Origin: Thermocladium sp.
GTDB taxonomy: Archaea; Thermoproteota; Thermoprotei; Thermoproteales; Thermocladiaceae
Length of the DNA: 64,000 bases
NCBI GenBank assembly: GCA_023269935.1
Contig: JAGDXC010000009.1
Coordinates: forward strand, 30,045 to 94,044
Reading direction: 5' to 3'
The notes under the pieces are model-generated. The model did not search any database and was not told the origin of the DNA. It saw nothing but the letters and a program-made list of their open reading frames with translations. A program made the position numbers and the translations under genes. This document shows, one piece after another, positions 8,082 to 28,881 of this stretch; the stretch's first letter is position 1, and each line of letters opens with the position of its first letter.

Positions 8082-8194
8082 TGGTGGGCCCGCCGGGATT
8101 TGAACATCCCCCAAGCAACCGCTTGACCGGGGCCTTTGCCGCCCATTGGCATCGGTTATCAGCCGATCGCTCCACCATGCTGAGCTACGGGCCC
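8082..8194 (-). tRNA. tRNA-Ile(GAU) with two apparent non-canonical introns; CCA encoded
   Basis: The 7-bp acceptor is formed by 8188-8194 and 8086-8092, with discriminator A at 8085 and CCA encoded at 8082-8084. The D arm GCTC/GAGC is intact. The anticodon stem ATCGG/CCGAT (8163-8167/8151-8155) encloses loop CTGATAA with anticodon GAU (8158-8160). Between the anticodon stem and the T stem there are 20 nt (8131-8150) where about 5 are expected. The T stem 5' strand is split: CCGG (8127-8130) is separated from its last G (8105) by 21 nt (8106-8126). That insert folds as CAAGC-GGTT-GCTTG. Removing about 15 and 21 nt restores a normal 74-nt tRNA with T arm CCGGG/CCCGG. No intron sits at the usual 37/38 site. 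A TTAAAAA box (about 8217-8223) gives a promoter about 27 nt upstream. Confidence 0.9.
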
Positions 8195-26547: not shown

Positions 26548-27252
26548 TTAACGGCCGAACCTCCTCTCGCGACCAGCATAGAAATTCAATGCATCAATTA
26601 GATCATCCCTACCAAAATCCGGCCAATACTTACTGGTGAAATACATCTCAGCATAGGCAGCCTCTAATGGAAAGAAATTGCTTAATCTATACTCGCCGCC
26701 CGTCCTTATCACTAGATCGATGGTGGGATATGGCATAAATGATGTAGGTAAGTACTTGAATAAGTCATTATCGCTTATCTCGCTCCTAGAACCAATAATG
26801 TTGTTAACCATATCCACCACAGATTGGATGCCGCCATATGCAATCGCCAAGTTAAGGAAATGATCATTATAATTGCTTGTTACCTTCATAGCAGCCATTA
26901 TCTCGTTGACCACGCCCTGAGGGAGATTCCTCCATCTACCTATTGCAGTTATCCGCACCCTATTATTATGGATCCTTGGATCATTTCTGGTCTTTATTAA
27001 TTTATTGATCAGCAATTCATACACTATATTCTTCTCAATTTCACTTCTATTCAACAGATTCTCCAGTGACAATACATAAACAGTAACGGCCTTTATCCCC
27101 ATCTCTATAGCCCAATCCAGGAAATCCTCCACCTTATCCGCACCTATTCTGTAAGCCGATAAGAAATCGGTATTATTCTTCTTTGCCCATCTCCTATTAC
27201 CATCAGGTATCACACCTATATGCAACGGAAGCTTCGAAAATCCTTGACCCAT
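26548..27252 (-). CDS. uppS: cis-Prenyltransferase (polyprenyl diphosphate synthase, UppS-like)
   Basis: Condenses isopentenyl diphosphate units in cis to make the long-chain polyprenyl phosphate carrier used in N-glycosylation. The 234-residue protein has the catalytic IPDGNRRWAKK (residues 15-25, Asp for diphosphate/Mg). It also has TVYVLSLENLLNRSEIE, NLAIAYGGIQSVVDM, and the IPP-binding IDLVIRTGGEYRLSNFF / EMYFTSKYWPDF region. Length matches the family (230-260). It is expressed alone, with TTTAAATTAATAAATT about 25 nt upstream of ATG 27252. Confidence 0.93.
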   Translation of the reverse strand: MGQGFSKLPLHIGVIPDGNRRWAKKNNTDFLSAYRIGADKVEDFLDWAIEMGIKAVTVYVLSLENLLNRSEIEKNIVYELLINKLIKTRNDPRIHNNRVRITAIGRWRNLPQGVVNEIMAAMKVTSNYNDHFLNLAIAYGGIQSVVDMVNNIIGSRSEISDNDLFKYLPTSFMPYPTIDLVIRTGGEYRLSNFFPLEAAYAEMYFTSKYWPDFGRDDLIDALNFYAGRERRFGR

Positions 27253-27344
27253 TATGCACGCATTGGCAATTTATTAATTTAAATGTTTTGCGCATATATA
27301 TCCATCCATACTTTAATACCTAAATTACTTACTGTATTAATCGC

Positions 27345-27458
27345 TTATTTAGATATACATGAATTAAAGCATTCCTCCATGCATCTCTCAACCAAGTAAG
27401 GCTCATCATCACTGCATTTAGAGCTGCACGACGATAAGCAACAATCCATAGATGCCAT
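27345..27458 (-). CDS. 37-residue cysteine-rich microprotein with CX3CX3C repeats
   Basis: A short open frame on the minus strand from ATG 27456-27458 to TAA 27345-27347. Cys is at positions 6, 7, 11, 15, 26, 30 and 34. C7-x3-C11-x3-C15 is separated by 10 residues (SDDEPYLVER) from C26-x3-C30-x3-C34, giving two matching cysteine ladders on what would be two antiparallel helices. Spacing of four residues places all Cys of a half on one helix face, ideal for cross-hairpin disulfides or metal binding. TTTAATA at 27481-27487 lies 26 nt upstream of the ATG, exactly the leaderless spacing of the other genes. A second in-frame ATG is at codon 4. No family recognised. The odds of this pattern by chance in an AT-rich gap are small, but no homologue has been checked. 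Confidence 0.6.
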   Translation of the reverse strand: MASMDCCLSSCSSKCSDDEPYLVERCMEECFNSCISK

Positions 27459-27738
27459 TCGCCATTAGGCGCATGCAGCTTATTAAATCTTACTGAAGTA
27501 GTCAATTAATAATATAAAATCTGAACCTAGAATAGATCGATCTAACCTCCTCGCCTTTATGGTATTTCTTGATTTGATCGCTTGCTCTGTGTTTTCCTTG
27601 ACCCTGCGAAGGGCCTAAATTGGAGACAATGGATTAAGCATACTCAACTTCACGACCCTAAAAAGGTCAGATACTATCCATATCTGATTATGCATAGTTA
27701 TGAGGATATTATTGAAGTGATTCATGCCAATTAATAAA
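27459..27738. other. Intergenic region with promoter, hairpin and a right-end-like scar
   Basis: It contains the microprotein TATA box (27481-27487) and a perfect 7-bp inverted repeat, TCAGATA-CTATCCA-TATCTGA, at about 27668-27688, downstream of the MBL gene stop. It also contains, on the minus strand, GGCGAGGAGGTTAG (27542-27555), which resembles the end of the TnpB-linked right ends at 46.8 and 60.6 kb. No further ORF is supported. Confidence 0.4.
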
Positions 27739-28728
27739 TTAATAGCTAGTTATATCGCCTTCATTGGTTGGCATTAAATGGGCATTCAAGCCATATTTGC
27801 GCCTAAGTGACTGAGCAAGCAATGCCGCATTTCCATATACAGTGTATATAGCCTTAGCACGCGACTCTAATGCGAACTTGACAAGAGATAAGTAATCGCT
27901 ATGATTACTTAGTTGAATTGAATTACCATAACCCCAACCTGTTACTCCTATCACATTTATTGGCCTCTTCAACTTAAACACATTACGGAACCTTAATCGA
28001 AGATCGCTATGAATACCTGTTATAGCCACTATCGGCTCATCATGATCGGCTTCCGGCACCATTATTGACCCCATGGGTTCCTTCAATAGTAACCTATTCA
28101 ATTTATATACATTATAATCAAGGAATGGCTTATATTTCCGAAGCAGAATCGCCAATTCCTGTCCCTTCCCCAAGGGGTGGCCACTAAATACCACATTATT
28201 ACCAAGGCTAATCGATCGCTCAACCTCATTAAGCAGCAAGTCATATAATTCATTTCTAGGCTTGAATATATAGCTCTCGCTCCCATATGTTCCCTCCATT
28301 ATCAAGATATCCACATCCCTCATAGAATCAGCGCCCCTCTGGACAACACTATCCTCCATATTGAAGTCACCGGTGACTCCAATTGATAAATCATTAAATT
28401 CCAGCAAATACATTGCACTACCAATAACGTGGCCCGCATTCATGGCTCTTATGCTCAGTTCATCTAGAACCAATAAATCGCCTATCTCAATCACAGTGGA
28501 TCCATCTAGTTTTAATCCATACATCTCGCTCAATATATCATGCGTCTGCCTCGTCATAATCAGATTATTAGCTTTGGTTATAGATGGAGTAAAATGATCG
28601 GTATGACCGTGGGTTATCAATACATAATCATACTTAGATGGATCGAACTTCCTATACGGATCAACCAATATAGATAAACCATTATGCTCTATCGATATGC
28701 CGCCGCTGAACCTTATCTTTAAATTCAT
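27739..28728 (-). CDS. MBL-fold hydrolase with RMMBL-like C-terminus
   Basis: A metallo-beta-lactamase fold protein of 329 residues related to RNA/DNA-processing nucleases. Metal ligands are visible in ITHGHTDHF (HxHxDH, residues 39-46), NAGHVIGSAMY and TGDFNMED. The C-terminus SNHSDYLSLVKFALESRAK...YTVYGNAALL resembles the RMMBL segment of beta-CASP nucleases, with S-x-H-S-D-Y in place of SAHADY. The beta-CASP insertion is short (about 100 residues), smaller than in CPSF73-like aCPSF proteins. It may be a compact RNase or a DNA-repair nuclease; substrate unknown. GCTTAAATAATTG lies about 27 nt upstream. Confidence 0.78.
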   Translation of the reverse strand: MNLKIRFSGGISIEHNGLSILVDPYRKFDPSKYDYVLITHGHTDHFTPSITKANNLIMTRQTHDILSEMYGLKLDGSTVIEIGDLLVLDELSIRAMNAGHVIGSAMYLLEFNDLSIGVTGDFNMEDSVVQRGADSMRDVDILIMEGTYGSESYIFKPRNELYDLLLNEVERSISLGNNVVFSGHPLGKGQELAILLRKYKPFLDYNVYKLNRLLLKEPMGSIMVPEADHDEPIVAITGIHSDLRLRFRNVFKLKRPINVIGVTGWGYGNSIQLSNHSDYLSLVKFALESRAKAIYTVYGNAALLAQSLRRKYGLNAHLMPTNEGDITSY

Positions 28729-28779: not shown

Positions 28780-28881
28780 TGGCGCCGGGGCCGGGATTTG
28801 AACCCGGGCCCCCATGCGGGGACGGGATGACTTGCTGCTGGGACTCAAGTCCCGCGCCTTGGGCCGCTCGGCCACCCCGGC
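28780..28881 (-). tRNA. tRNA-Ser(UGA) with intron at 37/38; CCA encoded
   Basis: Acceptor stem GCCGGGG (28875-28881) pairs with CCCCGGC (28784-28790); discriminator G at 28783; CCA at 28780-28782. The anticodon stem CGGGA (28850-28854) pairs with TCCCG (28823-28827). Loop bases before the break give C-T-TGA-G, so the anticodon is UGA at 28845-28847. A 15-nt intron (28829-28843) follows position 37 and its CAAGTC pairs with exon GACTTG, as in a bulge-helix-bulge substrate. The long variable arm has the stem CCCC-GCAT-GGGG, and G73 with this arm supports serine. The T arm is CCGGG-TTCAAAT-CCCGG. A TTAAAAA box lies about 30 nt upstream. Confidence 0.92.

Follow-up and report, generated by a model that had tools for sequence, protein, structure and literature searches.

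CX3C pairs on two antiparallel helices are familiar from the small Tims, hexameric mitochondrial chaperones with four Cys and longer helices than those considered below. In plants, the six-Cys (6C) class of alpha-hairpinins has the form C1X3C2X3C3X4-20C4X3C5X3C6, and a plant survey gives CX3CX3CX10CX3CX3C as the most widespread variant, with 558 of 1057 six-Cys predictions (PMC11591084). The Hairpin Loop Peptides of fungi and insects are described as proteins of ~85 aa with a signal peptide and a 15-residue loop, hydrophobic and generally uncharged, whose Cys are mirrored on two helices and linked by three nested disulfides (PMC13357843). Here we describe a gene for a 37-aa microprotein with two such mirrored CX3CX3C ladders in a 64,000-nucleotide stretch of Thermocladium sp. 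contig JAGDXC010000009.1 (the window). Among the titles listed in searches of an open-licence literature library, none reports an archaeal six-Cys hairpin.

A conserved 37-codon gene

The gene and its parts lie as follows:

27345..27458, minus strand: gene for the 37-aa Cys-ladder microprotein, stop codon included
27414..27440, minus strand: first CX3CX3C ladder (Cys 7, 11, 15), within predicted helix 1 (residues 2-15)
27384..27413, minus strand: 10-residue acidic turn, SDDEPYLVER
27357..27383, minus strand: second CX3CX3C ladder (Cys 26, 30, 34), within predicted helix 2 (residues 20-36)
27481..27495, minus strand: promoter block CAGTAAGATTTAATA, with a TATA-like TTTAATA at 27481-27487

A sequence-only reading of this DNA had proposed a 37-codon frame with seven Cys, arranged in two CX3CX3C ladders around a 10-residue acidic turn. 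Translation of 27345-27458 bore this out: the frame starts with ATG, ends with TAA and encodes MASMDCCLSSCSSKCSDDEPYLVERCMEECFNSCISK, with Cys at residues 6, 7, 11, 15, 26, 30 and 34, of which Cys 6 is extra and lies outside both ladders. The peptide is acidic (net charge -4, pI 4.2), and all nine distinct sequences of the 6C microprotein that we collected carry a net charge of -3 to -4. The six frames of the window contain the 6C motif (X4-20 loop) just once, and none of 150 dinucleotide-shuffled versions of the window has it.

This 37-residue frame is a real, conserved gene of the heat-loving Thermocladium-type archaeon. The nearest named genome, Thermocladium modestius (G001), whose prenyltransferase is 86% identical to that of the window, has the same frame between the same two neighbour genes, and the neighbours are likewise syntenic in G012 and G013. 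Between the window and T. modestius, 26 of 108 bases differ (8, 1 and 17 at codon positions 1, 2 and 3 respectively), which results in nine amino-acid changes, none of them at a Cys. Nonsynonymous change is thus far rarer than synonymous change (9.5 of 88.0 versus 16.5 of 20.0 sites). When 26 random substitutions were simulated 20 000 times, nine or fewer amino-acid changes were never obtained, and all Cys were kept with no stop in 22 runs. Likewise, over the first 34 codons of the five Caldivirga-type genes introduced below, the proportion of synonymous differences (pS) was 0.33-0.86 and that of nonsynonymous differences (pN) 0.02-0.10 in all 10 pairs. All six ladder Cys and the X10 loop length are invariant in the nine aligned sequences. 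In contrast, the loop residues differ between the two groups while being kept within each (consensus SDDEPYL[VA]ER in Thermocladium, YD[NS]D[VI][RG]VNES in Caldivirga), and Cys 6 is present in 4/4 Thermocladium-type but 0/5 Caldivirga-type sequences. We had looked in close relatives for lack of conservation or frame-breaking indels, either of which the sequence-only reading regarded as fatal, and found instead a conserved frame with synonymous drift and unchanged Cys spacing. The further statement that the gene falls below annotation cut-offs holds as far as the frame is short, but the T. modestius orthologue (40 aa) and one Caldivirga homologue (51 aa) are already in the protein collection, both as 'hypothetical protein'. 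An overlapping 58-codon TTG frame (27329-27505) was rejected, being interrupted by a stop in T. modestius and G013; the +1 frame of the microprotein gene is closed in the same two genomes.

A TATA box at leaderless distance had also been claimed for this gene, and TTTAATA indeed occupies positions -29 to -23 relative to the ATG. The promoter block is identical in 4/4 Thermocladium-type loci (window, G001, G012 and G013); in the spacer that follows it, the window and G012 differ from G001 and G013. The immediate neighbours, given for context only, are:

26548..27252, minus strand: cis-prenyltransferase (undecaprenyl diphosphate synthase family), downstream neighbour (Pfam PF01255, E 3e-60)
27739..28728, minus strand: metallo-beta-lactamase-fold protein, upstream neighbour (Pfam PF13483, E 3.3e-8), synteny conserved

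The gap between the microprotein and cis-prenyltransferase genes varies from 92 bp in the window to ~135 in G012, 351 in G013 and 374 in T. modestius, and hence the two do not form a fixed operon. We therefore dropped a coupling between them; judged by its promoter region, the microprotein gene probably stands alone, with a leaderless-type promoter of its own. The T. modestius metallo-beta-lactamase gene (L001 3439-4433) is split across frames, which may be a draft-assembly error. Elsewhere in the window, two tRNA genes at 28783-28881 and 8085-8194 (both minus strand) were detected by Rfam and missed by ARAGORN; their lengths are 99 and 110 bases, and an intron is possible, above all in the second.

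Distribution and genomic setting

Among 25 genomes of the T. modestius family, three matched strongly, with E 3e-23 to 5e-15 (G001, G013 and G012), and five weakly, with E 0.05 to 0.6 (G002, G003, G004, G005 and G006); on inspection, the weak matches had identical Cys spacing. A profile search of 45 genomes of the order returned E < 1e-12 in eight; among the matches listed there were five further ones at E 0.008 to 0.1, including a second match in G004. No strong match beyond the same eight carriers was found in 398 Thermoproteota genomes, drawn from a larger group. Weak matches (e.g. G006:C170, G025, G021, G045, G007, G010, G072 and G255) had no six-Cys motif in the loci fetched, several containing stops, while some of the weakest ones in the order-wide and phylum-wide searches had no locus to inspect. 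On an rpoB tree of 29 genomes (of the 45 searched, 43 had an rpoB match and 30 yielded a locus; G018, with a different start motif, was left out), midpoint-rooted for drawing only, the eight carriers form one side of a branch with support 100/99, and the 21 remaining genomes had no strong match in the order-wide profile search. A virus origin was set aside: an IMG/VR profile scan yielded 44 pattern stretches, none of them a relative, and tblastn against a phage collection gave no match.

The gene occupies different places in the two genera. In Caldivirga-type genomes, a metallo-beta-lactamase gene lies upstream of the prenyltransferase gene with no six-Cys frame between them in the four of five genomes that gave the locus (one pair of metallo-beta-lactamase proteins was compared and was 45% identical over most of its length; the other three were matched by eye). 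The Caldivirga-type gene lies instead next to rpoB. It has a TATAAAA-like box ~30 bases before its ATG, so that both forms look leaderless as far as can be told from the DNA, and its frame stops 12 bases short of the rpoB GTG in 5/5. Its last nine codons (EMKVYKPTQ) are nearly frozen at the DNA level: none of the 10 pairs shows more than one synonymous change on 4.7 sites. They contain TTTATAAA, which in all five genomes occupies positions -32..-25 relative to the rpoB GTG. The tail DNA thus looks like rpoB's own promoter, and the tail is modelled with low confidence, so adjacency to rpoB need not mean joint function; we set functional coupling aside. As an observation in its own right, the C-terminal codons of the Cys peptide in these five loci (L035-L039) appear to double as the rpoB promoter, giving an overprinted tail.

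With rpoB and rpoH assigned by Pfam PF04563 and PF01191, an rpoH-like core was found upstream of rpoB in 20/30 loci, including the three of Thermocladium type, and in 0/5 of Caldivirga type. Loss of RpoH was ruled out, since rpoH was present in 5/5 Caldivirga-type genomes, on another contig or, in G002, ~1.4 Mb away. The T. modestius rpoH (G001:C27:15804-16077) is split across frames in the contigs searched, again possibly a draft-assembly error.

The Thermocladium and Caldivirga proteins align with an hhalign P of 6.3e-5. When the Cys columns were held constant, however, the real score was equalled in 13 of 150 column shuffles, which weakens the case for homology of the two proteins; that case rests on the Cys spacing and on the single group in the tree.

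Predicted fold and competing explanations

The sequence-only reading had suggested a helical hairpin. AlphaFold2 supports it, modelling the window peptide as helices 2-15 and 20-36 with a mean pLDDT of 84.2 (the first model used an alignment in which rows L007 and L013 were each short of a terminal residue), and the best Foldseek match is a solved six-Cys plant hairpin, nigellin-1.1 (PDB 2NB2; E 0.91, not significant alone). The fold is thus predicted to be an antiparallel alpha-helical hairpin. Profile matches to RIG-I in PDB and a peptide match to 4fs7 were taken as chance. No Pfam family reached its cut-off and NCBIfam lists none; the TIL domain PF01826 scored 14.4 bits for the window peptide and 15.7 for the orthologue, against a gathering score of 24.5.

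Three disulfides are plausible, given six invariant ladder Cys and a PDO-type family match in all eight carrier genomes. Matches to the PDO family TIGR02187 exceed the cut-off in four carriers; three others reach 178-181 bits against 185, and the G001 match covers only positions 35-208. The family is not confined to carriers: it exceeds the cut-off in two genomes given without the 6C peptide (G014 and G186), and in 14 controls it was matched in 13 at a loose threshold and in three over the cut-off.

We propose that the gene is expressed from a leaderless-type promoter as an acidic protein of 37-40 aa, in which Cys 7, 11 and 15 of helix 1 would face Cys 34, 30 and 26 of helix 2. Cytosolic oxidation, in archaea carrying PDO-type disulfide oxidoreductases, would then close three nested rungs (7-34, 11-30 and 15-26) and leave a hyperstable rod resembling a plant 6C alpha-hairpinin, a likeness that would have arisen by convergence. 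Cys 6 could serve as a free thiol for dimerization or mixed disulfides, and the turn and outer helix faces could form a genus-specific contact surface. Taken as a whole, we consider such a disulfide-stapled helical hairpin fairly probable. The least certain step is function: we suggest, tentatively and with less confidence than for the hairpin itself, a small scaffold that binds a partner protein as its inhibitor or adaptor.

The strongest rival, which we judge unlikely, is a small protein that binds metal (Zn, Cu(I) or Fe-S) and whose ladders are thiolate sites of a reduced hairpin used in metal buffering or sensing. The six Cys, set on two helices, would be able to bind soft metals, and the Pfam family closest to the four-Cys relatives, a weak match below cut-off, is filed as 'Tim10/DDP family zinc finger'. 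The spacing, however, matches disulfide-stapled hairpins rather than zinc knuckles, the absence of any Pfam or NCBIfam assignment offers this rival no support, and neither of the two adjacent genes is one for transport or storage of metals, although the protein encoded upstream is itself a metallo-hydrolase by fold.

It seems quite improbable to us that the peptide is a helper of redox-active or small-Tim-like kind, whose ladder would switch between its dithiol and disulfide states and act as a reservoir of thiols, a substrate of PDO or a holdase for other proteins. Cys 6, a potential free thiol in 4/4 Thermocladium-type sequences, would suit it, as would weak profile matches to TIM8 (E 0.021) and TIM13 (E 0.17) in one search and to TIM13 (E 0.061) in another. 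Yet RIG-I chains top the search that listed TIM8, so such matches are not telling; zf-Tim10_DDP (PF02953) reached 9.4 bits for the T. modestius orthologue against a gathering score of 22.3, and did not appear among the window peptide's matches of E ≤ 1. In addition, the helices look too short for a Tim-like hexamer, and neither immediate neighbour is a redox gene.

Far less probable is an antimicrobial or secreted defence peptide, i.e. a true functional alpha-hairpinin used against competitors. The Cys motif and predicted fold are those of the plant peptides, and 95% of the 6C peptides in the plant survey are reported as predicted to be antimicrobial; the same survey describes antimicrobial peptides as having a positive surface charge (PMC11591084), in contrast to the net -3 to -4 found here in 9/9 sequences. 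An acidic product of 37 aa that leaves no space for a signal peptide does not look like a secreted antimicrobial, and the two adjacent genes are not of export or immunity type. Finally, a chance open frame, suggested by the shortness of 37 codons, is in practice refuted by conservation across four Thermocladium-type loci, with third positions taking 17 of 26 differences between the window and T. modestius, seven Cys and the promoter kept, and no motif in shuffled windows.

Comparison with known hairpin proteins

If the disulfides of the stapled hairpin form, the microprotein would be a minimal protein of the cytosol that owes its fold chiefly to three covalent rungs, and it would come from a group of organisms in which a role of cytosolic disulfides in thermostability has long been argued. 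For PDO it would provide a test substrate of very small size. It would also be a clean example of convergence on the six-Cys spacing of plant hairpin peptides and, as an encoded scaffold of 37 residues, an attractive heat-stable framework for protein design.

The likeness to small Tims lies in CX3C pairs on two helices and in weak profile matches short of the Pfam cut-off. A second microprotein family with this likeness was noticed in Ignisphaera-type Thermoproteota. Its members (42-55 aa as aligned, including Igag_1125; loci L077:4956-5102, L079-L086, L088, L092, L093, L095 and L097) have four Cys as CX3C-x12-CX3C; nine aligned rows agree in these Cys and also in Y, H and CRE. It matches at E ≤ 0.1 in 16/18 genomes of one family and at E ≤ 0.001 in 12/398 of the phylum, and its closest Pfam family is again PF02953, below cut-off. 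Compared with the 6C microprotein, it has four ladder Cys, different residues and x12 rather than x10. In a test for which this family was chosen after L067 had scored, 0/200 shuffles of all rows reached the real score, as did 0/150 of the Caldivirga rows with Cys columns fixed; without the two closest rows, 5/150 did. The Thermocladium rows alone (Cys columns fixed) were matched by 16/150 shuffles, or 17/150 without the two closest rows, so homology of the two families is not established. Speculatively, and with considerable reserve, six-Cys (Thermocladium, Caldivirga) and four-Cys twin-CX3C (Ignisphaera-type) proteins might form a thermoproteotal class of cytosolic, PDO-oxidized stapled hairpins. 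Such a class would be the archaeal analogue of the twin-CX3C proteins of mitochondria, oxidative folding included, and would have arrived independently at the hairpin scaffold of plants and fungi.

The Hairpin Loop Peptides share mirrored Cys on two helices and differ in size, loop and charge from a microprotein of 37 aa with a 10-residue loop and a net charge of -4. Plant four-Cys (4C) alpha-hairpinins (BWI-2c, VhTI, EcAMP1 and the Ara h 1 leader) have two rungs and other loop chemistry, unlike the three ladder rungs and one extra Cys of the archaeal microprotein. Trypsin-inhibitor alpha-hairpinins carry an Arg P1 residue within the loop (PMC7191063); here the sole loop Arg is the last loop residue in 4/4 Thermocladium-type sequences and lies mid-loop in 4/5 of Caldivirga type.

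The closest parallel is with the plant 6C alpha-hairpinins, which share two mirrored CX3CX3C ladders, an X10 loop that in 9/9 archaeal sequences is exactly that of the commonest plant form, and a helix-loop-helix of ~37 residues, here predicted; the loop of nigellin-1.1, the best solved match, counts 11 residues in our alignment. In phmmer comparisons, neither EcAMP1 (E 0.065) nor nigellin (E 2.1) was significant. Unlike the plant peptides, the microprotein is archaeal, probably cytosolic, acidic and without a precursor, and its disulfides are proposed from the Cys pattern. We read X10 as the loop length that is geometrically best for closing three rungs over a tight turn, which makes convergence the default and a simpler reading of the resemblance than common descent; by the same token, homology of the Thermocladium and Caldivirga proteins becomes harder to argue.
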